Positions 5,620 to 38,608 of a stretch of 64,000 nt of DNA are shown one piece after another. Source of the DNA: Siphonodentalium dalli. Its lineage: Eukaryota > Mollusca > Scaphopoda > Gadilida > Siphonodentaliidae. The stretch's first letter is position 1, and every line of letters begins with the position of its first letter. The stretch spans positions 35,750,106 through 35,814,105 of the forward strand of contig CP136063.1 of the NCBI GenBank assembly GCA_032622095.1, written 5' to 3'. The notes beneath the pieces were generated by a model, which worked only from the letters and a program-made list of their open reading frames with translations, was not told where the DNA came from and did not search any database. Both the position numbers and the translations under genes were made by a program.

Positions 5620-5648
<29 letters not shown>
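5620..5648. repeat. (TA)n microsatellite
   Basis: Pure alternating TA of about 29 bases immediately beside the inverted satellite-linker copy. Confidence 0.95.
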
Positions 5649-5649
<1 letters not shown>

Positions 5650-5780
5650 CTAACAACACTAACGACCTTAGGGAGACTGTTGAAATAATCCGACCTTAGG
5701 GAGACATCTCGATATATCATTTTCTATGCATTTTCATAGCTTCTGTGTGTGGTGAGAGCATTTGGTATTAATCGAAAAGC
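5649..5780 (-). repeat. Inverted solitary copy of the satellite linker
   Basis: The reverse complement reads through the same landmarks as linker A of the satellite: TTAATACCAAATGCTCTCAC, then GAAAATGATATAT, GAGATGTCTCCCTAAGGTCG, GATTATTTCAA and GTTGTTAGCTATA. It is more diverged from the array linkers than they are from each other and is not attached to a MITE copy. It is probably an older copy of the sequence into which, or beside which, the MITE lay before amplification. Confidence 0.8.
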
Positions 5781-5845
5781 CATCAATTATATCATTTGTG
5801 ATGACTATTATAATATTTAAAAATATATACCAAGTGTCCCCCTAA

Positions 5846-5946
5846 TACCGTCTCCCTAATGTTTGGTCATTTTACATACAACATGAACCATATTAGGGGG
5901 ACATATACAATAAATACCACTACATGCGGTATTAGGGGGACACATA
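5846..5946. repeat. Inverted repeat with GTCCCCCTAAT motif
   Basis: TGTCCCCCTAATACCG (about 5853) and its reverse complement CGGTATTAGGGGGACA (about 5927) form inverted arms about 60 bp apart. GTCTCCCTAATGT and ATATTAGGGGGACA lie between them. The same words recur near 35.8, 36.3 and 45.7 kb and in each satellite linker. No gene in the surrounding 5781-6143. Confidence 0.7.
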
Positions 5947-6143
5947 TTAAAAATCAAAGTTATGGAGATACATAATATGTACTTTATATTTTGAAGCCAT
6001 ATTCTTGCAATAGTCTTACGAAATGACTAGATATAATTTAAGATGCTAGCATACGCGAGAAATTTAACCCTCAATACACGAATGCGGGACCTGGTTTAAT
6101 CTTTGTAAAACGCTATATCAGTACATGGCATTGGTTATAATAA

Positions 6144-6829
6144 TCAAAGGCACGGGCGGCGTTCGTTGCAGAAATATCATATGTGTTCAAATCCCAACCA
6201 ACAGAAGGAATATTAAAAAATATATAGTTTTGATCATATGCAAACATAATCAGCGCGTAAATAGTATATTGTCCTCAATGTGCACTACGGTGGCGTAAAA
6301 AGCAGTCTGCTCATGTTACAGAAGTTTTGCTTTTGTTTACACAACACAACGCAAGTATAGTAGTTGACCACACCAAAATTATATAAACGCTCTTTATTAT
6401 TTCCATATAAGGAACAAATAACGCTCTTTATGTTTACCATATCCGGATCTAAACAAAAGCAAGGAAACGTAACGGTTTTTCCCTTTCTTTACATAATATG
6501 CGCAAAACACAACGCAATCATATTGGTTAATCACACAAACATTATATAAACGCTCTTCATTATTTCCATATAAGAAAAATAGTAACAAAAACGCTCTTTA
6601 TGCTTACCATATCCGGATCTATACAAAAGTCAGGAAACGTAACGGTTTTTTCCTTTTGTTTGCACAACAAAGTGAAAACGATGAACAATAACATACTGTT
6701 TATGCCATATTTCTGTATGATATAACAACAACTTCTGCCTATATTTTACTATTTCTGTTTACGGTGGTTTTTGACGGAGCTGAATATTTTAACAGCATAC
6801 CCACCGCCAAAGACAGCCCGTATCTTTAA
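6144..6829 (+). mobile_element. First, diverged MITE copy with internal duplication
   Basis: Left end TCAAAGGCACGGGCGGCG (TTAA mutated to TCAA), right end GCCCGTATCTTTAA. At 686 bp it is longer than the usual 524 because the central block (ACACAACGCAA... through the two AACGCTCTTTAT words and CATATCCGGATCT) occurs twice. It carries CCATATAAGG at 6403-6412, a perfect CArG-box consensus, where the amplified copies read CCATATAAGA. The upstream flank (CAGTACATGGCATTGG...) is already the array linker. Confidence 0.8.
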
Positions 6830-9800
6830 TATGAGCAATAAAAGATGTTTTTTTATTAATACCAAATGCTCTCATCATACCCAGAAGCTGCACGTTGCAT
6901 GGAAAATGATATATTGAGATGTCTGCCTAAGGTCGGATTATTTCAAGAGTCTCCCGAATGTCGTTTCATGTTGTTAGGTATATGTATATCATTACATGGT
7001 ATTGGTTATAATAATTAAAGGCACGGGCGCCGTTCGTTGCAGAACTATTCATATGTGATCAAATCGCCACCAACAGATGGAATATTAAAATATATATAGC
7101 TTTGTCGAGATGTCTCCCTAAGGTCGGATTATTTCAAGAGTCTCCCTAATGTCGTTAATTTTGTTAGCTATATGTATATGTATATCAGTACATGGCATTG
7201 GTTATAATAATTAAAGGCACGGGTGGCGTTCGTTGCAGAAATATTAATATGTGGTCAAATCGCCACCAACAGATGGAATATTAAAATATGTACAGTTTTG
7301 TTCATATGCAAACGTAATCAGCGCGTGAATAGTGTATTGTCCTCAATGTGTACGATGATTGCGTAAACAACAACATGCTCGTGTTACAGAAGTTTTGCTT
7401 CTGTTTACAAAACACAACGCAATCATATTGGTTAATCACACAAACATTATATAAACGCTCTTCATTATTTCCATATAAGAAAAATAGTGACAAATAACGC
7501 TCTTTATGCTTACCATATCCGGATCTATACAAAAGTCAGGAAACGTAACGGTTTTTTCCTTTTGTTTGCACAACAAAGTGAAAACAATTGACAATAACAT
7601 ACTGTTTATGCCATATTTATGTATGATATAACAACAACTTCTGCCTATATTTTACTATTTCTGTTTATGGCGGTTTTTGACGGAGATGAATTTTAACAGC
7701 ATACCCACCGCCAACACCGCCCGTATCTTTAATATGAGCAATAAAAGATGTTTTTTTTTATTAATACCAAATGCTCTCACCATACCCAGAAGCTGCACGT
7801 TGCATGGAAAATGATATATTGAGATGTCTGCCTAAGGTCGGATTATTTCAAGAGTCTCCCGAATGTCGTTTCATGTTGTTAGGTATATGTATATCATTAC
7901 ATGGTATTGGTTATCATAATTAAAGGCACGGGCGCCGTTCGTTGCAGAACTATTCATATGTGATCAAATCGCCACCAACAGATATAGAATATTAAAATAT
8001 ATATTGCTTTGTCTAGATGTCTCCCTAAGGTCGGATTATTTCAAGAGTCTCCCTAATGTCGTTAATTTTGTTAGCTATATGTATATGTATATCAGTACAT
8101 GGCATTGGTTATAATAATTAAAGGCACGGGTGGCGTTCGTTGCAGAACTATTCATATGTGATCAAATCGCCACCAACAGATGGAATATTAAAATATATAT
8201 AGCTTTGTCGAGATGTCTCCCTAAGGTCGGATTATTTCAAGAGTCTCCCTAATGTCGTTGATTTTGTTAGCTATATGTATATGTATGTCAGTACATGGCA
8301 TTGGTTATAATAATTAAAGGTACGGGCGGTGTTCGTTGCAGAAATATTAATATGTGGTCAAATCGCCACCAACAGATGGAATATTAAAATATGTACAGTT
8401 TTGTTCATATCCAAACGTAATCAGCGCGTGAATAGTGTATTGTCCTCAATGTGTACGATGATTGCGTAAACAACAGCATGCTCGTGTTACAGAAGTTTTG
8501 CTTCTGTTTACATAACACAACGTAATCATATTGGTTAATCACACAAACATTATATAAACGCTCTTCATTATTTCCATATAAGAAAAATAGTAACAAACAA
8601 CGCTCTTTATGCTTACCATATCCGGATCTATACAAAAGTCAGGAAACGTAACGGTTTTTTCCTTTTGTTTGCACAACAAAGTGGAAACAATTGACAATAA
8701 CATACTGTTTATGCCATATTTCTGTTTGATATAACAACAGATTCTGCCTATATTTTACTATTTCTGTGTATGGCGGTTTTTGACGGAGATGAATATTTTA
8801 ACAGCATACCCACCGCCAACACCGCCCGTATCTATAATATGAGCAATAAAAGATGTTTTTTTATTAATACCAAATGCTCTCACCATACCCTGAAGCTGCA
8901 CGTTGCATGGAAAATGATATATTGAGATGTCTGCCTAAGGTCGGATTATTTCAAGAGTCTCCCGAATGTCGTTTCATGTTGTTAGGTATATGTATATCAT
9001 TACATGGTATTGGTTATAATAATTAAAAGCACGTGCGGCGTTCGTTGCAGAACTATTCATATGTGATCAAATCGCCACCAACAGATGGAATATTAAAATA
9101 TATATAGTTTTGTCGAGATGTCTCCCTAAGGTCGGATTATTTCAAGAGTCTCACTAATGTCGTTAATTTTGTTAGCTATATGTATATGTATATCAGTACA
9201 TGGCATTGGTTATAATAATTAAAGGCACGGGTGGCGTTCGTTGCAGAACTATTCATATGTGATCAAATCGCCACCAACAGATGGAATATTAAAATATATA
9301 TAGCTTTGTCGAGACGTCTCCCTAAGGTCGGATTATTTCAAGAGTCTCCCTAATGTCGTTAATTTTGTTAGCTATATGTATATGTATATCAGTACATGGC
9401 ATTGGTTATAATAATTAAAGGCACGGCCGGTGTTCGTTGCAGAAATATTAATATGTGGTCAAATCGCCACCAACAGATGGAATATTAAAATATGTACAGT
9501 TTTGTTCATATACAAACGTAATCAGCGCATGAATAGTGTATTGTCCTCAATGTGTACGATGATTGCGTAAACAACAGCATGCTCGTGTTACGGAAGTTTT
9601 GCTTCTGTTTACATAACACAACGCAATCAAATTGGTTAATCACACAAACATTATATAAACGCTCTTCATTATTTCCATATAAGAAATATAGTAACAAACA
9701 ACGCTCTTTATGCTTACCATATCCGGATCTATACAAAAGTCAGGAAACGTAACGTACTGTTTATGCCATAGTTCTGTATGATATAACAACAAATTCTGCC

Positions 9801-9923
9801 TATATTTTACTATTTCTGTTTATGGCGGTTTTTGACGGAGCTGAATATTTTAACAGCATACCCACCGCCAAAGACAGCCCGTATCTTTAATATGAGCAAT
9901 AACAGATGTTTTTTTTATTAATA

Positions 9924-11405
9924 GAGACCTTTCGCATCCTCACGTTTACGATTACGAATACGGATAGCTATTCGTAGTCGTAAGTCTATCCGTATGGCCA
10001 AAAAGTCCTTTCGCAAAACGACTACGCGTAAGAGTTTTGACGAACACGACCCACCGGGCCGACCATGGTTGTTCGGCCCGGTTTGAGAAAATTGTGAAAA
10101 CTAAACAAGAAAATCGCAAAATCCTAGCATCCAGACTGACCTCAAGCTTTCCTAGTGTTGGAAATTTCAAACCTCATACTCTCCCTTAGTTTGGAAATTT
10201 TCAGTCAACGATTTTAACCAAATGTAGTAAAATATTGTTTTCTTAAACTCATTAGCAGTTTTTTATTGGTCACGGGGAGGGACCAGGACACACCGGGCGA
10301 AAGTTTTTTTTAAACGTGAACAAGAAAATCGCAAAATCCTGGCATCTAGACTAGCCTCAAGCATTCATAGAGTTGGAAATTTCCAACTGATGACAATTGC
10401 AGTGTCAATTTTGACCAAATGTAGGACAATATAATTTTCTTAAATTAACTAGAAGTTTTTGACTTGACACGGGGGGGGGGGCAGGACACAAGCTTTCCAA
10501 GTGTTGGAAATTTCCAACCTGACACCCCTAAGGTTGGAAAATTTCTATCTGATGGCCATTTCAGTCCAAAAATTTTATCAAAAGAAGGAAAATATGCAAA
10601 TATTGGTCCAAAAACAATAAATTCCTCACAATAAGTTGTTTGAAAATCAAACTACAAGAACATTTTCAACCTATTGTTGGTGTAAAATTTCCAACTAATG
10701 TTGTGTCAGGTATGAAATTTCCAACTGTTGAAAATTTTGACAAAAGTTGGAGGGTGAGACACCCCCAACAACCCCCCCCCCCCCTGTCGCCACGTCTCTG
10801 TGTATGTGCATTGGAAATCAAATATCCTATCCTATCTAGGCATATCACCTTTTGGGGTTTAGGAAATCAGACATAAGGTTGCTGTACTCGCTGATGTGCA
10901 TCACTTCTGATTTGGTCCTATCAACTCGAAATAAAGTCGACACGGTGATGTCGGTGGGTGTGCCAAATATTCTTTTAGTACCACCAAATCCATGTCAGTC
11001 GTGTATTTTTGGCGACTGGTTTCATAGTGCACTTCTATATATTACTGCAAAGTGTTGTGTCGCAGCCAGCGATTACTGTCCGTTGTGAATAGCGATCTTA
11101 TTTCGCGGGAAGCTCGAGATTCACGACGACGAGTACAGTGATTGCCAATCTTAACAGCACACCGAGGTCGTAGCTCAATACAACTGGATGGTTTACATGA
11201 TATACATATACAGTCTCGAACGGAGTAAAGTGATATATTGCAGAAAATAAATTTCAGGTGTTATTTGAGCTTATTAGAAACCATGAAATCGTAACCGTTA
11301 TTGCGGATAGTAAAATACGACAACGATTAGAAAGTACACAAATGTTGGTGACGTAGTACCCTATCCGTATCCGTAATCGTAAACGTGAGTTTTGCGAAAG
11401 GTCTC
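9924..11405. mobile_element. 1.48-kb TIR DNA transposon inserted in the satellite
   Basis: Ends are inverted: left GAGACCTTTCGCATCCTCAC then GTTTACGATTACGAATACGG; the right end read in reverse gives GAGACCTTTCGCAAAACTCA then CGTTTACGATTACGGATACG. The satellite word TTATTAATACC is interrupted and TAATA is present on both sides (9919-9923 and 11406-11410), a 5-bp target duplication. Because the ends are near-palindromic, a 3-bp duplication is also possible. Inside are a 9-bp perfect hairpin (CCGGGCCGA at 10054, TCGGCCCGG at 10073), two copies of an 'AAGAAAATCGCAAAATCCT' block and repeated TTGGAAATTTCCAAC words. No transposase frame, so non-autonomous; superfamily not recognised. A diverged inverted relative is at 51.6-52.2 kb. 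Confidence 0.85.
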
Positions 11406-14400
11406 TAATACCAAATGCTCTCACCATACCCAGAAGCTGCACGTTGCATGGAAAATGATATATTGAGATGTCTGCCTAAGGTCGGATTATTTCAAGAGTC
11501 TCCCGAATGTCTTTTCATGTTGTTAGGTATATGTATATCATTACATGGTATTGGTTATAATAATTAAAGGCACGGGCGGCGTTCGTTGCAGAACTATTCA
11601 TATGTAATCAAATCGCCACCAACAGATGGAATATTAAAATATATATAGCTGTGTCGAGATGTCTCCCTAAGGTCGGATTATTTCAAGAGTCTCCCTAATG
11701 TCGTTAATTTTGTTAGCTATATGTATATGTATATCAGTACATGGAATTGGTTATAATAATTAAAGGCACGGGCCGTGTTCGTTGCAGAAATATTGATATG
11801 TGGTCAAATCGCCACCAACAGATGGAATATTAAAATATGTACAGTTTTGTTCGTATGCAAACGTAATCAGCGCACGAATAGTGTATTGTCCTCAATGTGT
11901 ACGATGATTGCGTAAACAACAGCATGCTCGTGTTACAGAAGTTTTGCTTCTGTTTACATAACACAACGCAATCATATTGGTTAATCACACAAACATTATA
12001 TAAACGCTCTTCATTATTTCCATATAAGAAAAATAGTAACAAACAACGCTCTTTATGCTTACCATATCCGGATCTATACAATAGTCAGGAAACGTAACGG
12101 TTTTTTCCTTTTGTTTGCACAACAAAGTGAAAACAATTGACAATAACATACTGTTTATGCCATATTTCTGTATGATATAACAACAACTTCTGCCTATATT
12201 TTACTATTTCTGTTTATGGCGGTTTTTGACGGAGATGAATATTTTAATAGCATACCCACCGCCAACACCGCCCGTATCTTTAATATGAGCAATAAAAGAT
12301 GTTTTTTTATTAATACCAAATGCTCTCACCATACCAGAAGCTGCACGTTGCATGGAAAATGATATATTGAGATGTCTGCTTAAGGTCGGATTATTTCAAG
12401 AGTCTCCCGAATGTCGTTTCATGTTGTTAGGTATATGTATATCATTACATGGTATTGGTTATAATAATTAAAGGCACGGGCGGCATTCGTTGCAGAACTA
12501 TTCATATGTGATCAAATCGCCACCAACAGATGGAAAATTAAAATATATATAGCTTTGTCGAGATGTCTCCCTAAGGTCGGATTATTTCAAGAGTCTCCCT
12601 AATGTCGTTAATTTTGTTAGCTATATGTATATGTGTATGAGTACATGGCATTGGTTATAATAATTAAAGGCACGGGCGGTGTTCGTTGCATACATATTAA
12701 TATGTGGTCAAATCGCCACCAACAGATGGAATATTAAAACATGTACAGTTTTGTTCATATGCAAACGTAATCAGCGCACGAATAGTGTATTGTCCTCAAT
12801 GTGTACGATGATTGCGTAAACAACAGCATGCTCGTGTTACAGAAGTTTTGCTTCTGTTTACATAACACAACGCAATCATATTGGTTAATCACACAAACAT
12901 TATATAAACGCTCTTCATTATTTCCATATAAGAAAAATAGTAACAAACAACGCTCTTTATGCTTACCATATCCGGATCTATACAATAGTCAGGAAACGTA
13001 ACGGTTTTTTCCTTTTGTTTGCACAACAAAGTGAAAACAATTGACAATAACATACTGTTTATGCCATATTTCTGTATGATATAACAACAACTTCTGCCTA
13101 TATTTTACTATTTCTGTTTATGGCGGTTTTTGACGGAGATGAATATTTAACAGCATACCCACCCGTCCCACCGCCAACACCGCCCGTATCTTTAATATGA
13201 GCAATAAAAGATATTTTTTTATTAATACCAAATGCTCTCACCATACCCATGCAGAAGCTGCACGTTGCATGGAAAATGATATATTGAGATGTCTGCTTAA
13301 GGTCGGATTATTTCAAGAGTCTCCCGAATGTCGTTTTCATGTTGTTAGGTATATGTATATCATTACATGGTATTGGTTATAATAATTAAAGGCACGGGCG
13401 GGATTCGTTGCAGAACTATTCATATGTGATCAAATCGCCACCAACAGATGGAAAATTAAAATATATATAGCTTTGTCGAGATGTCTCCCTAAGGTCGGAT
13501 TATTTCAAGAGTCTCCCTAATGTCGTTAATTTTGTTAGCTATATGTATATGTATATCAGTACATGGCATTGGTTATAATAATTAAAGGCACGGGTGGCGT
13601 TCGTTGCAGAACTATTCATGCATATGTGATCAAATCGCCACCAACAGATGGAATATTAAAATATATATAGCTTTGTCGAGATGTCTCCCTAAGGTCGGAT
13701 TATTTCAAGAGTCTCCCTAATGTCGTTAATTGTGTTAGCTATATGTATATGTATATCAGTACATGGCATTGGTTATAATAATTAAAGGCACGGGCGGTGT
13801 TCGTTGCAGAAATATTAATATGTGGTCAAATCGCCACCAACAGATGGAATATTAAAATATGTACAGTTTTGTTCATATACAAACGTAATCAGCGCATGAA
13901 TAGTGTATTGTCCTCAATGTGTACGATGATTGCGTAAACAACAGCATGCTCGTTTTACGGAAGTTTTGCTTCTGTTTACATAACACAACGCAATCAAATT
14001 GGTTAATCACACAAACATTATATAAACGCTCTTCATTATTTCCATATAAGAAATATAGTAACAAACAACGCTCTTTATGCTTACCATATCCGGATCTATA
14101 AAAAAGTCAGGAAACGTAACGTACTGTTTATGCCATAGTTCTGTATGATATAACAGCAAATTCTGCCTATATTTTACTATTTCTGTTTATGGCGGTTTTT
14201 GACGGAGCTGAATATTTTAACAGCATACCCACCGCCAAAGACAGCCCGTATCTTTAATATGAGCAATAACAGATGTTTTTTTATTAATACCAAATGCTCT
14301 CACCATACCCAGAAGCTGCACGTTGCATGGAAAATGATATATTGAGATGTCTGCCTAAGGTCGGATTATTTCAAGAGTCTCCCGAATGTCTTTTCATGTT

Positions 14401-15162
14401 GTTAGGTATATGTATATCATTACATGGTATTGGTTATAATAATTAAAGGCACGGGCGGCGTTCGTTGCAGAACTATTCATATGTGATCAAATCGCCACCA
14501 ACAGATGGAATATTAAAATATATATAGCTGTGTCGAGATGTCTCCCTAAGGTCGGATTATTTCAAGAGTCTCCCTAATGTCGTTAATTTTGTTAGCTATA
14601 TGTATATGTATATCAGTACATGGAATTGGTTATAATAATTAAAGGCACGGGCCGTGTTCGTTGCATAAATATTGATATGTGGTCAAATCGCCACCAACAG
14701 ATGGAATATTAAAATATGTACAGTTTTGTTCATATGCAAACGTAATCAGCGCACGAATAGTGTATTGTCCTCAATGTGTACGATGATTGCGTAAACAACA
14801 GCATGCTCGTGTTACAGAAGTTTTGCTTCTGTTTACATAACACAACGCAATCATATTGGTTAATCACACAAACATTATATAAACGCTCTTCATTATTTCC
14901 ATATAAGAAAAATAGTAACAAACAACGCTCTTTATGCTTACCATATCCGGATCTATACAATAGTCAGGAAACGTAACGGTTTTTTCCTTTTGTTTGCACA
15001 ACAAAGTGAAAACAATTGACAATAACATACTGTTTATGCCATATTTCTGTATGATATAACAACAACTTCTGCCTATATTTTACTATTTCTGTTTATGGCG
15101 GTTTTTGACGGAGATGAATATTTTAACAGCATACCCACCGCCAACACCGACCGTATCTTTAA

Positions 15163-15543
15163 TATGAGCAATAAAAGATGTTTTTTTATTAATACCAAAT
15201 GCTCTCATCATACCCAGAAGCTGCACGTTGCATGGAAAATGATATATTGAGATGTCTGCCTAAGGTCGGATTATTTCAAGAGTCTCCCGAATGTCGTTTC
15301 ATGTTGTTAGGTATATGTATATCATTACATGGTATTGGTTATAATAATTAAAGGCACGGGCGCCGTTCGTTGCAGAACTATTCATATGTGATCAAATCGC
15401 CACCAACAGATGGAATATTAAAATATATATAGCTTTGTCGAGATGTCTCCCTAAGGTCGGATTATTTCAAGAGTCTCCCTAATGTCGTTAATTTTGTTAG
15501 CTATATGTATATGTATATCAGTACATGGCATTGGTTATAATAA
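15163..15543 (+). repeat. Representative satellite linker with nested sub-repeat
   Basis: Linker A (15163-15347) runs from the right MITE end to a second TTAAAGGCACGGGCG. About 90 bp of MITE left end follows (15348-15437), then linker B (to 15543), which repeats GAGATGTCTNCCTAAGGTCG, GATTATTTCAAGAGTCTCCC, TTAGCTATATGTATATG and CATGGYATTGGTTATAATAA. Linker B plus MITE left end is therefore a roughly 196-bp sub-repeat that expanded separately. It occurs once more in the units near 7.9-8.3, 9.0-9.4 and 13.4-13.8 kb. Confidence 0.85.
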
Positions 15544-16067
15544 TTAAAGGCACGGGCGGTGTTCGTTGCATACATATTAATATGTGGTCAAATCGCCACC
15601 AACAGATGGAATATTAAAACATGTACAGTTTTGTTCATATGCAAACGTAATCAGCGCGTGAATAGTGTATTGTCCTCAATGTGTACGATGATTGCGTAAA
15701 CAACAGCATGCTCGTGTTACAGAAGTTTTGCTTCTGTTTACATAACACAACGCAATCATATTGGTTAATCCCACAAACATTATATAAACGCTCTTCATTA
15801 TTTCCATATAAGAAAAATAGTAACAAACAACGCTCTTTATGCTTACCATATCCGGATCTATACAAAAGTCAGGAAACGTAACGGTTTTTTCCTTTTGTTT
15901 GCACAACAAAGTGAAAACAATTGACAATAACATACTGTTTATGCCATATTTCTGTATGATATAACAACAACTTCTGCCTATATTTTACTATTTCTGTTTA
16001 TGTCGGTTTTTGACGGAGATGAATATTTTAACAGCATACCCACCGCCAACACCGCCCGTATCTTTAA
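15544..16067 (+). mobile_element. Representative piggyBac-type MITE (array copy)
   Basis: A 524-bp element bounded by TTAA. Left end TTAAAGGCACGGGCGGTGTT; right end read in reverse TTAAAGATACGGGCGGTGTT (18 of 20 identical). TTAA targets are characteristic of piggyBac. It contains a small perfect hairpin (ACAGAAG-TTTTG-CTTCTGT, 15719-15737), two AACGCTCTT words each followed by CCATAT, and no transposase. The copies at 29601-30056 and 32197-32747, which flank a piggyBac transposase, share this sequence from end to end, which is my reason for the family assignment. Confidence 0.85.
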
Positions 16068-19000
16068 TATGAGCAATAAAAGATGTTTTTTTATTAATAC
16101 CAAATGCTCTCACCATACCCAGAAGCTGCACGTTGCATGGAAAATGATATATTGAGATGTCTGCTTAAGGTCGGATTATTTCAAGAGTCTCCCGAATGTC
16201 GTTTCATGTTGTTAGGTATATGTATATCATTACATGGTATTGGTTATAATAATTAAAGGCACGGGCGGCATTCGTTGCAGAACTATTCATATGTGATCAA
16301 ATCGCCACCAACAGATGGAAAATTAAAATATATATAGCTTTGTCGAGATGTCTCCCTAAGGTCGGATTATTTCAAGAGTCTCCCTAATGTCGTTAATTTT
16401 GTTAGCTATATGTATATGTATATGAGTACATGGCATTGGTTATAATAATTAAAGGCACGGGCGGTGTTCGTTGCATACATATTAATATGTGGTCAAATCG
16501 CCACCAACAGATGGAATATTAAAACATGTACAGTTTTGTTCATATGCAAACGTAATCAGCGCGTGAATAGTGTATTGTCCTCAATGTGTACGATGATTGC
16601 GTAAACAACAGCATGCTCGTGATACAGAAGTTTTGCTTCTGTTTACAAAACACAACGCAATCATATTGGTTAATCACACAAACATTATATAAACGCTCTT
16701 CGTTATTTCCATATAAGAAAAATAGTAACAAACAACGCTCTTTAAGCTTACCATATCCGGATCTATACAAAAGTCAGGAAACGTAACGGTTTTTTTCCTT
16801 TTGTTTGCACAACAAAGTGAAAACAATTGACAATAACATACTGTTTATGCCATATTTCTGTATGATATAACAACAACTTCTGCCTATATTTTACTATTTC
16901 TGTTTATGGCGGTTTTTGACGGAGATGAATATTTTAATAGCATACCCACCGCCAACACCGCCCGTATCTTTAATATGAGCAATAAAAGATGTTTTTTATT
17001 AATACCAAATGCTCTCACCATACCCAGAAGCTGCACGATGCATGGAAAATGATATATTGAGATGTCTGCTTAAGGTCGGATTATTTCAAGAGTCTCCCGA
17101 ATGTCGTTTCATGTTGTTAGGTATATGTATATCATTACATGGTATTGGTTATAATAATTAAAGGCACGGGCGGCATTCGTTGCAGAACTATTCATATGTG
17201 ATCAAATCGCCACCAACAGATGGAATATTAAAATATATATAGCTGTGTCGAGTTGTCTCCCTAAGGTCGGATTATTTCAAGAGTCTCCCTAATGTCGTTA
17301 ATTTTGTTAGCTATATGTATATGTATATCAGTACATGGAATTGGTTATAATAATTAAAGGCACGGGCCGTGTTCGTTGCATAAATATTGATATGTGGTCA
17401 AATCGCCACCAACAGATGGAATATTAAAATATGTACAGTTTTGTTCATATGCAAACGTAATCAGCGCACGAATAGTGTATTGTCCTCAATGTGTACGATG
17501 ATTGCGTAAACAACAGCATGCTCGTGTTACAGAAGTTTTGCTTCTGTTTACATAACACAACGCAATCATATTGGTTAATCACACAAACATTATATAAACG
17601 CTCTTCATTATTTCCATATAAGAAAAATAGTAACAAACAACGCTCTTTATGCTTACCATATCCGGATCTATACAATAGTCAGGAAACGTAACGGTTTTTT
17701 CCTTTTGTTTGCACAACAAAGTGAAAACAATTGACAATAACATACTGTTTATGCCATATTTCTGTATGATATAACAACAACTTCTGCCTATATTTTACTA
17801 TTTCTGTTTATGGCGGTTTTTGACGGAGATGAATATTTTAACAGCATACCCACCGCCAACACCGACCGTATCTTTAATATGAGCAATAAAAGATGTTTTT
17901 TTATTAATACCAAATGCTCTCATCATACCCAGAAGCTGCACGTTGCATGGAAAATGATATATTGAGATGTCTGCCTAAGGTCGGATTATTTCAAGAGTCT
18001 CCCGAATGTCGTTTCATGTTGTTAGGTATATGTATATCATTACATGGTATTGGTTATAATAATTAAAGGCACGGGCGCCGTTCGTTGCAGAACTATTCAT
18101 ATGTGATCAAATCGCCACCAACAGATGGAATATTAAAATATATATAGCTTTGTCGAGATGTCTCCCTAAGGTCGGATTATTTCAAGAGTCTCCCTAATGT
18201 CGTTAATTTTGTTAGCTATATGTATATGTATATCAGTACATGGCATTGGTTATAATAATTAAAGGCACGGGCGGTGTTCGTTGCATACATATTAATATGT
18301 GGTCAAATCGCCACCAACAGATGGAATATTAAAACATGTACAGTTTTGTTCATATGCAAACGTAATCAGCGCGTGAATAGTGTATTGTCCTCAATGTGTA
18401 CGATGATTGCGTAAACAACAGCATGCTCGTGTTACAGAAGTTTTGCTTCTGTTTACAAAACACAACGCAATCATATTGGTTAATCCCACAAACATTATAT
18501 AAACGCTCTTCATTATTTCCATATAAGAAAAATAGTAACAAACAACGCTCTTTATGCTTACCATATCCGGATCTATACAAAAGTCAGGAAACGTAACGGT
18601 TTTTTCCTTTTGTTTGCACAACAAAGTGAAAACAATTGACAATAACATACTGTTTATGCCATATTTCTGTATGATATAACAACAACTTCTGCCTATATTT
18701 TACTATTTCTGTTTATGTCGGTTTTTGACGGAGATGAATATTTTAACAGCATACCCACCGCCAACACCGCCCGTATCTTTAATATGAGCAATAAAAGATG
18801 TTTTTTTATTAATACCAAATGCTCTCACCATACCCAGAAGCTGCACGTTGCATGGAAAATGATATATTGAGATGTCTGCTTAAGGTCGGATTATTTCAAG
18901 AGTCTCCCGAATGTCGTTTCATGTTGTTAGGTATATGTATATCATTACATGGTATTGGTTATAATAATTAAAGGCACGGGCGGCATTCGTTGCAGAACTA

Positions 19001-22000
19001 TTCATATGTGATCAAATCGCCACCAACAGATGGAAAATTAAAATATATATAGCTTTGTCGAGATGTCTCCCTAAGGTCGGATTATTTCAAGAGTCTCCCT
19101 AATGTCGTTAATTTTGTTAGCTATATGTATATGTATATGAGTACATGGCATTGGTTATAATAATTAAAGGCACGGGCGGTGTTCGTTGCATACATATTAA
19201 TATGTGGTCAAATCGCCACCAACAGATGGAATATTAAAACATGTACAGTTTTGTTCATATGCAAACGTAATCAGCGCGTGAATAGTGTATTGTCCTCAAT
19301 GTGTACGATGATTGCGTAAACAACAGCATGCTCGTGATACAGAAGTTTTGCTTCTGTTTACAAAACACAACGCAATCATATTGGTTAATCACACAAACAT
19401 TATATAAACGCTCTTCGTTATTTCCATATAAGAAAAATAGTAACAAACAACGCTCTTTAAGCTTACCATATCCGGATCTATACAAAAGTCAGGAAACGTA
19501 ACGGTTTTTTTCCTTTTGTTTGCACAACAAAGTGAAAACAATTGACAATAACATACTGTTTATGCCATATTTCTGTATGATATAACAACAACTTCTGCCT
19601 ATATTTTACTATTTCTGTTTATGGCGGTTTTTGACGGAGATGAATATTTTAACAGCATACCCACCGCCAACACCGACCGTATCTTTAATATGAGCAATAA
19701 AAGATGTTTTTTTATTAATACCAAATGCTCTCATCATACCCAGAAGCTGCACGTTGCATGGAAAATGATATATTGAGATGTCTGCCTAAGGTCGGATTAT
19801 TTCAAGAGTCTCCCGAATGTCGTTTCATGTTGTTAGGTATATGTATATCATTACATGGTATTGGTTATAATAATTAAAGGCACGGGCGCCGTTCGTTGCA
19901 GAACTATTCATATGTGATCAAATCGCCACCAACAGATGGAATATTAAAATATATATAGCTTTGTCGAGATGTCTCCCTAAGGTCGGATTATTTCAAGAGT
20001 CTCCCTAATGTCGTTAATTTTGTTAGCTATATGTATATGTATATCAGTACATGGCATTGGTTATAATAATTAAAGGCACGGGCGGTGTTCGTTGCATACA
20101 TATTAATATGTGGTCAAATCGCCACCAACAGATGGAATATTAAAACATGTACAGTTTTGTTCATATGCAAACGTAATCAGCGCGTGAATAGTGTATTGTC
20201 CTCAATGTGTACGATGATTGCGTAAACAACAGCATGCTCGTGTTACAGAAGTTTTGCTTCTGTTTACATAACACAACGCAATCATATTGGTTAATCCCAC
20301 AAACATTATATAAACGCTCTTCATTATTTCCATATAAGAAAAATAGTAACAAACAACGCTCTTTATGCTTACCATATCCGGATCTATACAAAAGTCAGGA
20401 AACGTAACGGTTTTTTCCTTTTGTTTGCACAACAAAGTGAAAACAATTGACAATAACATACTGTTGATGCCATATTTCTGTATGATATAACAACAACTTC
20501 TGCCTATATTTTACTATTTCTGTTTATGTCGGTTTTTGACGGAGATGAATATTTTAACAGCATACCCACCGCCAACACCGCCCGTATCTTTAATATGAGC
20601 AATAAAAGATGTTTTTTTATTAATACCAAATGCTCTCACCATACCCAGAAGCTGCACGTTGCATGGAAAATGATATATTGAGATGTCTGCTTAAGGTCGG
20701 ATTATTTCAAGAGTCTCCCGAATGTCGTTTCATGTTGTTAGGTATATGTATATCATTACATGGTATTGGTTATAATAATTAAAGGCACGGGCGGCATTCG
20801 TTGCAGAACTATTCATATGTGATCAAATCGCCACCAACAGATGGAAAATTAAAATATATATAGCTTTGTCGAGATGTCTCCCTAAGGTCGGATTATTTCA
20901 AGAGTCTCCCTAATGTCGTTAATTTTGTTAGCTATATGTATATGTATATGAGTACATGGCATTGGTTATAATAATTAAAGGCACGGGCGGTGTTCGTTGC
21001 ATACATATTAATATGTGGTCAAATCGCCACCAACAGATGGAATATTAAAACATGTACAGTTTTGTTCATATGCAAACGTAATCAGCGCGTGAATAGTGTA
21101 TTGTCCTCAATGTGTACGATGATTGCGTAAACAACAGCATGCTCGTGATACAGAAGTTTTGCTTCTGTTTACAAAACACAACGCAATCATATTGGTTAAT
21201 CACACAAACATTATATAAACGCTCTTCGTTATTTCCATATAAGAAAAATAGTAACAAACAACGCTCTTTAAGCTTACCATATCCGGATCTATACAAAAGT
21301 CAGGAAACGTAACGGTTTTTTTCCTTTTGTTTGCACAACAAAGTGAAAACAATTGACAATAACATACTGTTTATGCCATATTTCTGTATGATATAACAAC
21401 AACTTCTGCCTATATTTTACTATTTCTGTTTATGGCGGTTTTTGACGGAGATGAATATTTTAATAGCATACCCACCGCCAACACCGCCCGTATCTTTAAT
21501 ATGAGCAATAAAAGATGTTTTTTATTAATACCAAATGCTCTCACCATACCCAGAAGCTGCACGATGCATGGAAAATGATATATTGAGATGTCTGCTTAAG
21601 GTCGGATTATTTCAAGAGTCTCCCGAATGTCGTTTCATGTTGTTAGGTATATGTATATCATTACATGGTATTGGTTATAATAATTAAAGGCACGGGCGGC
21701 ATTCGTTGCAGAACTATTCATATGTGATCAAATCGCCACCAACAGATGGAATATTAAAATATATATAGCTGTGTCGAGTTGTCTCCCTAAGGTCGGATTA
21801 TTTCAAGAGTCTCCCTAATGTCGTTAATTTTGTTAGCTATATGTATATGTATATCAGTACATGGAATTGGTTATAATAATTAAAGGCACGGGCCGTGTTC
21901 GTTGCATAAATATTGATATGTGGTCAAATCGCCACCAACAGATGGAATATTAAAATATGTACAGTTTTGTTCATATGCAAACGTAATCAGCGCACGAATA

Positions 22001-25000
22001 GTGTATTGTCCTCAATGTGTACGATGATTGCGTAAACAACAGCATGCTCGTGTTACAGAAGTTTTGCTTCTGTTTACATAACACAACGCAATCATATTGG
22101 TTAATCACACAAACATTATATAAACGCTCTTCATTATTTCCATATAAGAAAAATAGTAACAAACAACGCTCTTTATGCTTACCATATCCGGATCTATACA
22201 ATAGTCAGGAAACGTAACGGTTTTTTCCTTTTGTTTGCACAACAAAGTGAAAACAATTGACAATAACATACTGTTTATGCCATATTTCTGTATGATATAA
22301 CAACAACTTCTGCCTATATTTTACTATTTCTGTTTATGGCGGTTTTTGACGGAGATGAATATTTTAACAGCATACCCACCGCCAACACCGACCGTATCTT
22401 TAATATGAGCAATAAAAGATGTTTTTTTATTAATACCAAATGCTCTCATCATACCCAGAAGCTGCACGTTGCATGGAAAATGATATATTGAGATGTCTGC
22501 CTAAGGTCGGATTATTTCAAGAGTCTCCCGAATGTCGTTTCATGTTGTTAGGTATATGTATATCATTACATGGTATTGGTTATAATAATTAAAGGCACGG
22601 GCGCCGTTCGTTGCAGAACTATTCATATGTGATCAAATCGCCACCAACAGATGGAATATTAAAATATATATAGCTTTGTCGAGATGTCTCCCTAAGGTCG
22701 GATTATTTCAAGAGTCTCCCTAATGTCGTTAATTTTGTTAGCTATATGTATATGTATATCAGTACATGGCATTGGTTATAATAATTAAAGGCACGGGCGG
22801 TGTTCGTTGCATACATATTAATATGTGGTCAAATCGCCACCAACAGATGGAATATTAAAACATGTACAGTTTTGTTCATATGCAAACGTAATCAGCGCGT
22901 GAATAGTGTATTGTCCTCAATGTGTACGATGATTGCGTAAACAACAGCATGCTCGTGTTACAGAAGTTTTGCTTCTGTTTACATAACACAACGCAATCAT
23001 ATTGGTTAATCCCACAAACATTATATAAACGCTCTTCATTATTTCCATATAAGAAAAATAGTAACAAACAACGCTCTTTATGCTTACCATATCCGGATCT
23101 ATACAAAAGTCAGGAAACGTAACGGTTTTTTCCTTTTGTTTGCACAACAAAGTGAAAACAATTGACAATAACATACTGTTTATGCCATATTTCTGTATGA
23201 TATAACAACAACTTCTGCCTATATTTTACTATTTCTGTTTATGTCGGTTTTTGACGGAGATGAATATTTTAACAGCATACCCACCGCCAACACCGCCCGT
23301 ATCTTTAATATGAGCAATAAAAGATGTTTTTTTATTAATACCAAATGCTCTCACCATACCCAGAAGCTGCACGTTGCATGGAAAATGATATATTGAGATG
23401 TCTGCTTAAGGTCGGATTATTTCAAGAGTCTCCCGAATGTCGTTTCATGTTGTTAGGTATATGTATATCATTACATGGTATTGGTTATAATAATTAAAGG
23501 CACGGGCGGCATTCGTTGCAGAACTATTCATATGTGATCAAATCGCCACCAACAGATGGAAAATTAAAATATATATAGCTTTGTCGAGATGTCTCCCTAA
23601 GGTCGGATTATTTCAAGAGTCTCCCTAATGTCGTTAATTTTGTTAGCTATATGTATATGTATATGAGTACATGGCATTGGTTATAATAATTAAAGGCACG
23701 GGCGGTGTTCGTTGCATACATATTAATATGTGGTCAAATCGCCACCAACAGATGGAATATTAAAACATGTACAGTTTTGTTCATATGCAAACGTAATCAG
23801 CGCGTGAATAGTGTATTGTCCTCAATGTGTACGATGATTGCGTAAACAACAGCATGCTCGTGATACAGAAGTTTTGCTTCTGTTTACAAAACACAACGCA
23901 ATCATATTGGTTAATCACACAAACATTATATAAACGCTCTTCGTTATTTCCATATAAGAAAAATAGTAACAAACAACGCTCTTTAAGCTTACCATATCCG
24001 GATCTATACAAAAGTCAGGAAACGTAACGGTTTTTTTCCTTTTGTTTGCACAACAAAGTGAAAACAATTGACAATAACATACTGTTTATGCCATATTTCT
24101 GTATGATATAACAACAACTTCTGCCTATATTTTACTATTTCTGTTTATGGCGGTTTTTGACGGAGATGAATATTTTAATAGCATACCCACCGCCAACACC
24201 GCCCGTATCTTTAATATGAGCAATAAAAGATGTTTTTTATTAATACCAAATGCTCTCACCATACCCAGAAGCTGCACGATGCATGGAAAATGATATATTG
24301 AGATGTCTGCTTAAGGTCGGATTATTTCAAGAGTCTCCCGAATGTCGTTTCATGTTGTTAGGTATATGTATATCATTACATGGTATTGGTTATAATAATT
24401 AAAGGCACGGGCGGCATTCGTTGCAGAACTATTCATATGTGATCAAATCGCCACCAACAGATGGAATATTAAAATATATATAGCTTTGTCGAGATGTCTC
24501 CCTAAGGTCGGATTATTTCAAGAGTCTCCCTAATGTCGTTAATTTTGTTAGCTATATGTATATGTATATCAGGACATGGCATTGGTTATAATAATTAAAG
24601 GCACGGGCGGTGTTCGTTGCAGAAATATTAATATGTGGTCAAATCGCCACCAACAGATGGAATATTAAAATATGTACAGTTTTGTTCATATGCAAACGTA
24701 ATCAGCGCATGAATAGTGTATTGTCCTCAATGTGTACGATGATTGCGTAAACAACAGCATGCTCGTGTTATAAAAGCTTTGCTTCTGTTTACATAACACA
24801 ACGCAATCATATTAGTTAATTACACAAACATTATATAAACGCTCTTCATTATTTCCATATAAGAAATATAGTAACAAACAACGCTCTTTATGCTTACCAT
24901 ATCCGGATCTATACAAAAGTCAGGAAACGTAACGTAAAGTTTATGCCATAGTTCTGTATGATATAACAACAAATTCTGCCTATATTTTACTATTTCTGTT

Positions 25001-27213
25001 TATGGCGGTTTTTGACGGAGCTGAATATTTTAACAACATACCCACCGCCAAAGACAGTCCGTATCTTTAATATGAGCAATAAAAGATGTTTTTTTATTAA
25101 TACCAAATGCTCTCACCATACCCAGAAGCTGCACGTTGCATGGAAAATGATATATTGAGATGTCTGCCTAAGGTCGGATTATTTCAAGAGTCTCCCGAAT
25201 TTCGTTTCATGTTGTTAGGTATATGTATATCATTACATGGTATTGGTTATAATAATTAAAGGCACGGGCGGCGTTCGTTGCAGAACTATTCATATGTGAT
25301 CAAATCGCCACCAACAGATGGAATATTAAAATATATATAGCTTTGTCGAGATGTCTCCCTAAGGTCGGATTATTTCAAGAGTCTCCCTAATGTCGTTAAT
25401 TTTGTTAGCTATATGTATATGTATATCAGTACATGGCATTGGTTATAATAATTAAAGGCACGGGCGGTGTTCGTTGCAGAAATATTAATATGTGGTCAAA
25501 TCGCCACCAACAGATGGAATATTAAAATATGTACAGTTTTGTTCATATGCAATCGTAATCAGCGCACGAATAGTGTATTGTCCTCAATGTGTACGATGAT
25601 TGCGTAAACAACAGCATGCTCGTGTTACAGAAGTTTTGCTTCTGTTTACATAACACAACGCAATCATATTGGTTAATCACACAAACATTATATAAACGCT
25701 CTTCATTATTTCCATATAAGAAATATAGTAACAAACAACGCTCTTTATGCTTACCATATCCGGATCTATACAAAAGTCAGGAAACGTAACGTAAAGTTTA
25801 TGCCATAGTTCTGTATGATATAACAACAAATTCTGCCTATATTTTACTATTTCTGTTTATGGCGGTTTTTGACGGAGCTGAATATTTTAACAACATACCC
25901 ACCGCCAAAGACAGTCCGTATCTTTAATATGAGCAATAAAAGATGTTTTTTTATTAATACCAAATGCTCTCACCATACCCAGAAGCTGCACGTTGCATGG
26001 AAAATGATATATTGAGATGTCTGCCTAAGGTCGGATTATTTCAAGAGTCTCCCGAATGTCGTTTCATGTTGTTAGGTATATGTATATCATTACATGGTAT
26101 TGGTTATAATAATTAAAGGCACGGGCGGCGTTCGTTGCAGAACTATTCATATGTGATCAAATCGCCACCAACAGATGGAATATTAAAATATATATAGCTT
26201 TGTCGAGATGTCTCCCTAAGGTCGGATTATTTCAAGAGTCTCCCTAATGTCGTTAATTTTGTTAGCTATATGTATATGTATATCAGTACATGGCATTGGT
26301 TATAATAATTAAAGGCACGGGCGGTGTTCGTTGCAGAAATATTAATATGTGGTCAAATCGCCACCAACAGATGGAATATTAAAATATGTACAGTTTTGTT
26401 CATATGCAATCGTAATCAGCGCACGAATAGTGTATTGTCCTCAATGTGTACGATGATTGCGTAAACAACAGCATGCTCGTGTTACAGAAGTTTTGCTTCT
26501 GTTTACATAACACAACGCAATCATATTGGTTAATCACACAAACATTATATAAACGCTCTTCATTATTTCCATATAAGAAAAATAGTAACAAACAACGCTC
26601 TTTATGCTTACCATATCCGGATCTATACAAAAGTCAGGAAACGTAACGGTTTTTTCCTTTAGTTTGCACAACAAAGTGAAAACAATTGACAATAACATAC
26701 TGTTTATGCCATATTTCTGTATGATATAACAACAAATTCTGCCTATATTTTACTATTTCTGTTTATGGCGGTTTTGGACGGAGATGAATATTTTAACAGC
26801 ATACCCACCGCCAACACCGCCCGTATCTATAATATGAGCAATAAAAGATATTTTTTTATTAATACCAAATGCTCTCACCATATCCAGAAGCTGCACGTTG
26901 CATGGAAAATGATATATTGAGATGTCTGTCTAAGGTCGGATTATTTCAAGAGTCTCCCGAATGTCGTTTCATGTTGTTAGGTATATGTATATCATTACAT
27001 GGTATTGGTTATAATAATTAAAGGCACGGGCGGCGTTCGTTGCAGAACTATTCATATGTAATCAAATCGCCACCAACAGATGGAATATTAAAATATATAT
27101 AGCTTTGTCGAGATGTCTCCCTAAGGTCGGATTATTTCAAGAGTCTCCATAATGTCGTTAATTTTGTTAGCTATATGTATATGTATATCAGTAAATGGCA
27201 TTGGTTATAATAA

Positions 27214-28078
27214 TTAAAGGCACGGGCGGTGTTCGTTGCAGAAGTATTAATATGTGGTCAAATCGCCACCAACAGATGGAATATTAAAATATGTACAGTT
27301 TTGTTCAGATGCAAACGTAATCAGCGCGTGAATAGTGTATTGTCCTCAATGTGTACGATGATTGCGTAAACAACAGCAGGCTCGTGTTACGGAAGTTTTG
27401 CTTCTGTTTACATAACACAACGCAATTATAGTGGTTAATCTCACAAACATTATATAAACGCTCTTTATTATTTCCATATAAGGAAAGTAGTAACAAAAAA
27501 CGCTCTTTATGTTTACCATATCCGGATCTAAATAAAACCTAGGAAAGGTAACGTTGTTTGCTTTTGTTTACGTAACACATTTGACGGATGTGAATATGTT
27601 AGTAGCATGCCCACCGCCGACACTGGCCGTATCTTTTATATAGCAATAAAAGATTTTTTGTTCGTTTGATACCAAATGCTCTCACCATAACCAGAAGCTT
27701 TACGTTGCATAGAAAATGATATATCGAGATGTCTCGCCATCAACATATGGAATATTAAAGCATTGTTCATATGCAAACATAATGGGGCGTAAATAGTGTA
27801 TTGTGTAATAGTATACTGTCTTCAATGTGTGCGATGATTGCCAACACCGCCCGTATCTTTGATATAGCAATAAAAGATGTTTATTTTTTCGATTAATAAC
27901 AAATGCCCTCACCTTACCCAGAAGCTACGCATTGCATAGAAAATGATATATCGAGATTCTCCATAAGGTCGGATTATTTCAAGAGTCTCCCAAAGGTTTA
28001 TGGCTGTTTTTGACGGAGGTGAATATTTTAACAGCATACCCACTGCCAACGCCGCCCGTATCTTTAATATAGCAATAA
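27214..28078 (+). repeat. Degenerate right edge of the satellite
   Basis: The last MITE copy keeps its left end (TTAAAGGCACGGGCGGTG) and centre but decays after 27530. Its right end is only recognisable as CCACCGCC..GGCCGTATCTTTTA near 27600-27640. Two further truncated pieces of linker and right end follow (27660-27890 and 27890-28078). CCATATAAGG at 27474-27483 is again a perfect CArG consensus. Confidence 0.75.
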
Positions 28079-29600
28079 GCAGTTATCAACGTACGATATC
28101 TCCATTCGTCGTTTATTTACATGTCTTCATGGCATATGACACTTTCCGACAAACACTTTAAGGACATTTCTAACGGGACAATGTTTTCGTTTGAAACTTG
28201 TGGGGGAGGGGTTGTGTGTCTTTGTTCAGTCATATACTCATTGTAGCAAATGAACACACCCAGCTTCATATGTCGAGTTGTTTGTAGATGCGATCGCGAA
28301 TCGCGATGGAGAGTTCAAACAATAATGAATATTTCATAATTACCCTCTAATTTGGTTGTTAAAAATAGATAATGACGACGTGTGCATAGATACATTATCA
28401 GACAACAAGTGATCATTGAGCGCTAAACGTTTTAGTTGATTGTTCGATCGTTTTGTAATTATAATAAGCTGGATGCGTGCCGGGCCACATCGTTTGCGCC
28501 ACCCAGACCTTGCTTTTTGACGCTGTTGGGAGACAATATTCAGAAGAAAATACTAAATGCTTGTATATAGAAATGAAATTGATGAGCGTTTGTACATGTA
28601 TGGTTTAAAATGAAATAATCAATCGCCGACCCACCCATGGCGATAAAGATGCCATTGTTGGATAAATGGGCTAAATTTGTCAGATTTTCTAGTGATGGTA
28701 AACGGGGGTATTGTATCGATCCCTTTGATTTTAATAATACTACCGTACTATTAACGTAAAACGTGCATCCAAACTGCCTCTATCCGAGTAAATGTATAAT
28801 AGGGACAGAGCATAGAGGCCGTTTGGATGCATGGAATGGGAGCGGAGCGCGTTGCAAGTCCATGTGCACTGGTTAATATATTCATTTCCGCTTTAGCTAA
28901 CAACTTGCCTGATTGCCAACAAATGCATACAGGGCAATTGGCTGCATGATATTATATTGTCCTTATGAAGGCAGCTTGGGGAGGTGCGGTCCGTGTCATG
29001 TTTATGTTGCGCACTTGGCAGAACCGGCCGTAGGTTAACAATGCTGTTCTCGCTCGAGCTACCGAGATTGGAACACCTGTATATACATACATGTCTATTC
29101 TGCACGAGAGCATTTGCCGGTATTGCATCATTTGGTTAATGATTTATTTTGGCCGAATTATACCAAATGTGCTTGTCCCTATAAACATGCTGATGTCAAC
29201 TTCCATGTACCATGCCATGACCAATGTCCCAATTGTATGGATTGTATCCCGTGCTAAATTATTTAACGACAAAATCCGACCAAGATATGCACCAGAGAAC
29301 ATGTTTTGCCGGACGACGCCAAATGCAAGTTATTTGTTTTCTCCCTCAACCAGATAACTTATATCAACCGAGGGCGTTTTGTAATAATGTCGTTTGGTCC
29401 CAAAAGGTTTGTCCTACTGTTTGTTTTCTTCCTGAGGGGGTTTTGTCAGAGTACCATGACAAGATATCTGGACATCAATTCAAATTCAGATGTTTATTGA
29501 ACATGGATTATCATCAGAACAAAATGAAAATGTAACAATGAATACGATTTTATAAAAAAAAAACAATGATGACGACTTACATAACATATAATCAAATAAC
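28079..29600. other. Unannotated; one isolated hairpin
   Basis: No gene recognised. Overlapping frames at 29091-29535 (88, 103 and 64 codons, +) have no domain I know. An imperfect stem lies at 28765-28831: GCATCCAAACTGCCTCTAT against ATAGAGGCCGTTTGGATGC, one mismatch, loop about 28 bp. Confidence 0.6.
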
Positions 29601-30056
29601 TTAAAGGCACGGGAGGCCTTAATTGTCGAAAATATTCATTTCTGTTCCAAACACCGTAAACAGAAAAACATTAACACGCTTAGTGTTCAATGCATATATA
29701 CCATGACAATCGCGTAAACAACAGTATGTTATCATAAAGATCTACTATATTTTATCTGAACAAGAGCCTGGTTGTGTTACAGAAGACAGCACAATGCTGC
29801 TGGCTAATCACACACAAATGGTATAAACGCTCTTTATTAGTTCCATATCAGGAATTCACCAACAAAGAACGCTCTTTATGTTTACCATAATAATATAAAC
29901 AAACACCAGAAAAGTAACTGTTTATGCTTTTTTTTTTTTTACATAACAATGGTCAAACATATGTCTACATTTTGATGTTCTTTCTGTTTGTGCCGGTTTT
30001 TGACGGGTGGAAACATTTTGACAGGATACCCACCGCCAAGGCCTCCCGTACCTTTA
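29601..30056 (+). mobile_element. Left piggyBac-type MITE copy, 456 bp
   Basis: TTAAAGGCACGGGAGGCCTT at the left and GGCCTCCCGTACCTTTAA at the right are inverted and both end in TTAA. The interior matches the satellite MITE in order: CGCGTAAACAACAGTATG, GTTACAGAAG, GCTAATCACACA, two AACGCTCTTTAT words, CGGTTTTTGACGG and ATACCCACCGCCAA. It is clearly diverged from the array copies. Confidence 0.8.
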
Positions 30057-30276
30057 AACGTAGAACTGGATAGCTTCTATCTCATGACATGACTAGACTA
30101 CTTTGTGGCACATGAGGGGTTTCTGAATTATGACGTAGACAGGACACCGATAATGATGAATGTTCACTAATCCTGAAGTTATTTGCCTATCTAATAACAA
30201 TAAACGTGGCACCGTGTGCATCGCGCGCGACACATGCTGTGTTACTTGGGTACCATTCTAAGTATTTACGAACAAC

Positions 30277-31953: not shown

Positions 31954-32196
31954 ACGTTCCGAACAATTATGGATTATGGTTATGAGATATATAATTTATG
32001 GACATCACAGAGAACCCAATGTGTATCTACTGTATATTGCTATACTCAGTTAACATTCAAACTATCCAATTATATTAATTGTTCACGCAACACATTTCAT
32101 GATATAATTTCAAATTTGGTGAAATGCACGATTTGACTCAGTTATTATTTCAAACCAAATTATAACATTCAAAAACAAATTTATTGCGAAATATTT

Positions 32197-38500: not shown

Positions 38501-38608
38501 TTTTATAAACAAAATAACGGACATATTTGAAAAAAGTGTTTTTGACTTAATAACGGACATATTTGGAGAAGTGTTTTAAAGAGCGTAAGTATATAAATAT
38601 GAATAATA

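Follow-up and report, generated by a model that had tools for sequence, protein, structure and literature searches.

A 64,000-nt stretch of the genome of the scaphopod Siphonodentalium dalli (C3:35750106-35814105, hereafter the window), searched against 2.227 Gb of that genome in nine contigs (C1-C9), holds a satellite array which is very probably carried as cargo inside a giant, non-autonomous mobile element that inserts into AT-type microsatellites; there is good support for the spread of this element as one defined unit. A reading made earlier from the letters alone (the sequence-only reading) had singled out positions 6144-28078 and interpreted them as a piggyBac-type miniature inverted-repeat transposable element (MITE) amplified together with its flank at one locus. 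The object that recurs elsewhere in the genome is a larger one, extending from 5649 to 45758.

The giant element begins with GCTAACAACACTAACG at 5649 and finishes with GGCTTCCGCGAAC at 45758, each terminus lying directly against an AT run. When copies on C1 and C5 were compared with the window, the sampled pieces proved co-linear at 98-99.5 % identity between 5649 and about 45758, apart from locally rearranged stretches near 38.7-41.8 kb and, in the C5 copy, insertions of foreign DNA; outside the two bounds no co-linear C1/C5 match was obtained, with seven pieces giving none and three giving short stray matches only. The 25-mer of the right end matched 143 places in the genome with no more than 2 mismatches (exactly in each of the first 100 listed), and that of the left end matched 198 (92 exact among 100 listed), some of which are pseudo-ends inside a diverged array (L067); the backward controls of both 25-mers returned none. 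Pairing of the first 100 of the 143 right ends with 100 of the 198 left ends, a list without right ends on C9, gave 61 same-strand pairs within 120 kb, spanning 16,066-88,445 bp with a median of 41,360, although the longest may join ends of different copies. The span was 30-60 kb in 51 of the 61.

The same boundary base abuts an AT-type microsatellite in all 22 left and all 21 right ends inspected. These microsatellites are mostly (AT)n, with other letters mixed into some, as in the C1 copy. Beyond them the copies part ways: among the 22 left flanks (about 300 bases each) only those of two copies, L049 and L063, are alike, and among the 21 right flanks the same two are alike, with short partial matches of L033, L037, L039, and L053. 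L049 and L063 occupy the microsatellite of one and the same host repeat, which is found without the element at 2,250 places in the form TTTGAGACTTC...(AT/GT)n...ATAGAATCGAAAACG (for example at C1:2096398).

The array itself was correctly recognised in the sequence-only reading as a tandem series of at least 22 copies in one orientation with a fixed linker. Comparison of the window with itself gave a self-identity peak of 0.556 at lag 905, followed by peaks at 1810 and 2715, and about 22 head-to-tail units of a single orientation were found at approximately 6114-28078, a 905-bp query recovering units from 6114 to 27569 and the rest to 28078 consisting of rearranged pieces. The core of each unit is a 524-bp MITE-like stretch with borders TTAAAGGCACGGGCGG...CCGCCCGTATCTTTAA, followed by a 185-bp linker; since one linker is common to all units, tandem duplication rather than repeated insertion produced the copies, as had been proposed. 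TTAA was likewise confirmed at the element termini, both in the array copies and in two related single MITEs at 29601-30057 and 32197-32747. The inverted ends said to be near-identical are indeed inverted, yet short (21 nt at 90 %), and the claim of one end-to-end element per unit gave way to a composition of 709 + 196 bp, in which a 196-bp direct duplication takes in the left end of the element and a portion of the linker, giving each unit a second left end. Three sub-repeats instead of two occur in the blocks starting at 7821, 8924, and 13286, and about 48 bp are absent from several units. MITE right ends with at most 2 mismatches number 21, the last at 26817, with three more (3, 1, and 0 mismatches) at 27623-28052 in the rearranged tail. 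The units at 15249-24299 follow the order A-B-C-A-B-A-B-C-A-B, like units being 99.6-100 % and unlike units 97.8-98.7 % identical, which points to recent local amplification.

Amplification was nevertheless not confined to this locus. Genome searches returned 2,420 candidates for the 524-bp element, the best 40 all being 99-100 % identical and distributed over C1-C5 and C7-C9, and 623 candidates for the linker, the best 40 all being 100 % identical and lying on C1-C4. These 80 best matches form 17 loci in the first list and 12 in the second, the window's own units included, and 79 of them have, within 100 kb on the same strand, a giant-element left end listed upstream or a right end listed downstream. 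Of 20 copies sampled at 4 kb inside the left end, 18 showed array sequence there, over 535-601 of 601 bases and with best matches of 89-99 %. Concerning the DNA beside the array, 22 of the 40 listed matches of the 32197-type MITE have a listed 29601-type match less than 5 kb away, mostly at 3.07-3.26 kb (the window itself having 2.6 kb), and for 38 of the 40 a listed giant-element end is no more than 120 kb away, which argues that the array moves together with a long piece of the adjacent DNA. The left end and the 29601 marker are 10.7-71.3 kb apart (interquartile range 19.2-34.5), and the marker and the right end 11.8-44.9 kb (interquartile range 16.1-18.6), each in 33 of 40 anchors; the wider interquartile range on the left places the length variation mainly on the array side.

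The linker, treated in the sequence-only reading as a neutral flank, is an inversely oriented copy of the left terminus of the giant element itself (unit positions 845-904 and 1-74/190-270 against 5772-5632, minus strand, 85-93 %), and all 44 pseudo-left-ends of the giant element in the window lie inside the array. The motif GTCTCCCTAATGT, counted with at most 2 mismatches, occurs 81 times in the array, always on one strand, four times in 5649-6113, and nine times on the right side, five of these in the last 300 bp; it was found nowhere in the flanks at 1-5648 and 45758-64000 (5.6 + 18.2 kb). The unit is inferred to be a tandemly duplicated junction between an inverted end of the giant family and a TTAA MITE.

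The affiliation of that MITE had been given as piggyBac. TTAA at both ends, as in piggyBac, is present, whereas the ends AGGYACGGG / AGATACGGG / AGTCACGGG do not carry the CC[C/T]T motif given for piggyBac termini (PMC2872659, as excerpted). The termini TTAA-AG...CT-TTAA agree with the TTAA target and 5'-RR...YY-3' ends of Kolobok, for which the excerpts of PMC6004289 and PMC9587614 give a TTAA target and AG-type termini. The AGGRR motif of T2-MITEs is absent, the starts being AGGCA, AGGTA, AGATA, and AGTCA; this motif defines the T2-MITE group rather than the Kolobok superfamily. By its termini, which match the published rule, the 524-bp element would be a Kolobok-type MITE, and the MITEs at 29601-30057 and 32197-32747 are about 78-83 % identical to the array units over the aligned parts.

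A genuine piggyBac element does lie within the giant element. Between the two inverted MITEs, PF13843 was detected in three open stretches (E 8.8e-12, 6.7e-29, and 2e-22), and a protein search gave 127 matches. Six of these away from listed giant ends were compared (L112-L117): five match at the DNA level, and L116, a 55 % relative, gave no DNA match. None of the five free-standing copies has the 29601 MITE, and all already hold the nested MITE, although in one of them only its right end was found. The stretch common to them starts at CTCTTTACTC in three of the five (L112, L115, and L117) and ends in GGGAACTAAAGAG-TTAA in two (L112 and L114), as does the window at 34618. On the left side L113 and L114 are incomplete through truncation, and the right ends of L113, L115, and L117 fall beyond the stretch compared. 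The ends so delimited read CTCTTTA[C/G]TYCCC next to TTAA, with 11 of 13 terminal bases matching, and TTAA stands on both sides in L112 and on the right side in the window and L114, the left flank of the C1 copy being TTAT. A PF13843 transposase and TTAA beside short inverted ends thus characterise 30178-34618 as piggyBac, and the free-standing copies with ends of their own identify it as a true piggyBac element nested in the giant one, not a partner of the MITE. The MITE shares no ends with it, and a piggyBac identity for the MITE was rejected. Also rejected was a composite transposon, with the transposase gene between the two inverted MITEs as their partner, because the 29601 MITE is absent from the free-standing copies, which continue beyond the 32197 MITE. 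The in-frame stop was found in 14 of 19 readable sampled copies, with another codon in five (one of the 20 gave no match); these five copies exclude it as proof that the gene died before the spread.

With the array read as cargo of the giant element, its history could be as follows. In an ancestral element, a copy of its left end in reverse orientation would have lain beside a Kolobok-type TTAA MITE, the 709-bp junction would have been tandemly duplicated, and the 196-bp internal duplication would have been gained later. A diverged giant copy at C2:17.2M (about 86 %), with the same layout and units of about 705 bp, makes the cargo look old and the 196-bp duplication more recent. A transposase acting in trans, which probably recognises the sub-terminal GTCTCCCTAATGT motifs, would then move the whole element into AT repeats, with the consequence that the satellite reaches each new site already made, and between jumps unequal exchange may lengthen, shorten, and homogenise the array within each copy. 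Unit relationships were assessed by a tree and permutation of full-length 524-bp copies only, from the window and seven loci (n = 45, or 42 without the diverged C2 locus). Unit identity was 98.1 % within the window and 97.1-98.2 % against other copies, unit variants are common to different giant copies, and about 44 % of units have their closest relative in a different copy.

Several observations weigh against this interpretation. Units group by copy above chance: for 23.3 of 42 units the nearest neighbour belonged to the same copy, the mean being 8.0 and the maximum 18.3 in 1,000 shuffles, and with the window left out the figure was 11.3 of 26 against 3.6 in shuffles; taken with the variants held in common, these relationships would fit a mixed array that was delivered and then homogenised locally. 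Array sequence was missing 4 kb inside the left end in two of the 20 sampled copies, three of the 40 anchors have no listed giant-element end, and the array lengths were derived from distances rather than counted. The array match at C1:171162130 has no listed giant terminus on its own strand within 100 kb in the right direction and lies about 62 kb before a left end, possibly as an array outside the element or as a copy with altered ends. As regards the target sites, the copies were chosen by exact or near-exact ends in patterns holding 3-4 flanking AT letters, so that other contexts were partly selected against while the runs beyond those letters were not selected; insertion inside a microsatellite leaves any target duplication unreadable, and a relative of about 1.84 kb at C3:73.708M has AC repeats at the start of its right flank. 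The motif GTCTCCCTAATGT was chosen from the element itself and its counts carry no shuffle control. Finally, neither end of the giant element is an inverted repeat of the other, and a Pfam scan of 10 of the 17 open frames of at least 110 aa found no transposase for it.

Mutator-like element (MULE) genes are plentiful in the genome (150 scored matches), and none of the 150 falls inside a listed end pair, a further point on the unfavourable side. Insertion into (TA)n, the habit of TA-microsatellite-targeting Mutator-like elements, is observed here in copies picked by their end patterns. The giant element shows no matching inverted ends. Two of the 150 lie no more than 100 kb from a listed giant end, at C2:120.435M (outside its element) and C7:188.878M. 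The latter is a MULE-type frame at C7:188877895, open for 243 aa, 75 kb inward of the unpaired right end C7:188803071, and is a weak lead to a mover.

The main rival of transposition, which we regard as unlikely, is that the giant repeat spreads by recombination, circles with AT-repeat junctions integrating by homology with no dedicated transposase. Such a model has been proposed for microsatellite-targeted MULEs in guayule (PMC5907723), and it would account for AT-type targets in every copy inspected. Seventeen right ends are followed by exactly ATATAGCTATA (ATATA-GCTATA), that is, ATATA continued by the opening letters of the left end (for example at C1:77373916 and C8:29825009), and by eye AGCT was seen in only one of 100 listed empty microsatellites. 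At C8:29824700-29825300 (L065), moreover, two giant copies stand head to tail with one common AT run carrying several AGCT interruptions. Against the circle route, all 22 inspected copies, chosen by their ends, have the boundary at one identical base, and the sub-terminal motif clusters at both ends, as would be expected for recognition by an enzyme. The AGCT mark itself is uneven, present in three of five copies with GGA but one of 14 with TGA at the piggyBac stop codon (lists compared by eye), and may accordingly be an inherited subfamily mark.

A less probable alternative still is a Helitron/Helentron-type rolling-circle element with central tandem repeats. Helitrons end in 5'-TC...CTRR-3'; the ends here, GCTAAC...CGCGAAC, do not conform to this on either strand when examined by eye. 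Pfam matches in the 10 open frames scanned, all of at least 110 aa, were to PF13843 within the giant element and to RVT_1 beyond it. What speaks for this alternative is the resemblance of the central array, the ends without inversion, and the satellite dispersal to oyster elements, as outlined for Crassostrea gigas in the portion of PMC8268682 consulted.

Amplification in place of a single piggyBac MITE insertion into a 22-kb satellite draws on the linker common to all units and the local higher-order amplification, and is rendered very improbable by the same units elsewhere, 79 of the 80 best matches lying beside giant-element ends, and by MITE ends unlike those of piggyBac and of the real piggyBac element; as a purely local event it is refuted by the co-linear C1 and C5 copies, by the ends inspected, and by the position of the array matches. 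An assembly artefact, with repeats collapsed or falsely duplicated, can be set aside almost entirely: long arrays are hard to assemble, but the window contains no N, the flanks differ between inspected copies, and both unit variants and array-side lengths vary from copy to copy.

The features of the window are collected in Table 1. A small relative of the giant element at C3:73707863 (L068), about 1.84 kb long, has both termini. It is built from satellite-like sequence in inverted orientation, some 575 bp for which no match was found, the left terminal region copied in reverse, and the right end. Within the giant element, 39378-41815 holds an inverted pair (96 %) with open frames of 126 and 183 aa that have a protein-like sequence in common and no Pfam match to E 0.01. 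Outside it, a LINE-like (long interspersed nuclear element) reverse transcriptase lies at 54893-56477 (PF00078 / RVT_1, 1e-23, in 54893-55894), and a GC-skewed tandem repeat of about 70/206 bp at 58264-59788. An Rfam scan of the window at gathering thresholds gave no match.

Table 1. Coordinates of features in the window
Feature	Position	Strand	Basis or remark
Giant mobile element, 40.1 kb, ends GCTAACAACACT...TTCCGCGAAC	5649..45758	+	Ends compared in 22 copies
(AT)n target microsatellite, left side	5620..5648		
(AT)n target microsatellite, right side	45759..45806		
Left terminal region, 4 copies of motif GTCTCCCTAATGT (at most 2 mismatches)	5649..6113	+	
Right terminal region, 5 copies of motif GTCTCCCTAATGT	45459..45758	+	
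Satellite array, about 22 units of 905 bp	6114..28078	+	Rearranged tail after 27569
Example 524-bp MITE-like element, ends TTAA-AG...CT-TTAA	18259..18782	+	
Example linker, inverted relative of the giant element's left end	18783..18967	+	Sequence match 85-93 %
191/196-bp sub-repeat x2, each with left MITE end and giant-element pseudo-left-end	17964..18349	+	
Unrelated 1.48-kb element interrupting the array, long inverted ends GAGACCTTTCGCA	9924..11405	not assigned	5-bp TAATA duplication
Single MITE of the same family, 457 bp	29601..30057	+	TTAA at both ends
MITE of the same family, inverted	32197..32747	-	Nested in the piggyBac element
Nested piggyBac element	30178..34618	+	5' end absent in the window, present in the C1 copy; TTAA at 34619-34622
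Broken transposase gene, PF13843	30262..31552	+	Pfam; in-frame stop and frame change
235-bp tandem repeat, about 4 copies	35635..36542		Holds 3 copies of motif GTCTCCCTAATGT
326-bp tandem repeat, 3 copies	44091..45054		

Satellites born from transposons, and satellites spread by Helitrons, are already known (excerpts of PMC4079207, PMC8268682, PMC12628747, and PMC9659126). The foldback transposon Tetris of Drosophila virilis carries TIR-220 satellite arrays of up to 66 copies (PMC4079207); here, too, tandem repeats inside a non-autonomous DNA transposon have expanded into satellite arrays, although the repeats of Tetris lie within its inverted ends and were amplified in beta-heterochromatin, whereas the present array lies inside elements of mostly 30-60 kb. 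The Helitron/Helentron satellites of C. gigas (PMC8268682) are similarly central in a mobile element and scattered over chromosomes, but they are short arrays (about six monomers on average for Cg170) within Helitrons, and ends, targets, and scale differ here. In plants, Mutator-like elements target TA microsatellites, and MuTAnT and SaTar resemble the giant element in being non-autonomous, in their TA-microsatellite targets, and in being joined through the microsatellite (PMC4486113, PMC5907723); those are small and Mutator-like, whereas the element described here is giant and has no matching inverted ends.

Other parallels concern the constituents. The T2-MITE Xmix of Xenopus with its Xstir repeats (PMC6004289) shares the TTAA target, the AG terminus, and the linkage of a MITE to tandem repeats, but in Xmix an internal segment was amplified, as opposed to a whole MITE with the end of another element, and the AGGRR motif is not seen here. 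The CMITE arrays of corals (PMC2872659) likewise consist of full-sized TTAA MITEs in tandem, with piggyBac-type ends, and the excerpt does not describe them as the cargo of a larger element. Teratorn (PMC6431247) is also a giant mobile element with a piggyBac-type gene inside; it is bounded by piggyBac-like inverted ends and carries herpesvirus genes, whereas here piggyBac is a nested passenger, the giant ends lie in AT microsatellites and not at TTAA with piggyBac ends, and the 10 open frames scanned in the window contained no viral domain. Judged by titles and the openings of abstracts, the literature compared contains no AT-microsatellite-targeting giant element with a satellite of tens of kb, and no tandem-repeat cargo in those sources reaches the scale of a 40-kb element with a 20-kb satellite.

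As a tentative extension, which we rate as considerably less likely than the cargo interpretation itself, the element might belong to an undescribed superfamily of giant AT-microsatellite-targeting DNA transposons that turned its own inverted end into a mobile satellite, dispersing satellites and acting in cis on transposition. Were such cis action real, the array might, for example, titrate the transposase or offer alternative ends through its 44 pseudo-ends and 81 putative binding motifs.

The routes by which satellite arrays reach new loci are usually argued from indirect evidence. With the array of S. dalli understood as cargo, one satellite would have been delivered many times with exact ends, each array having a datable insertion and known flanks, and the growth, loss, and homogenisation of arrays after delivery would become directly measurable.

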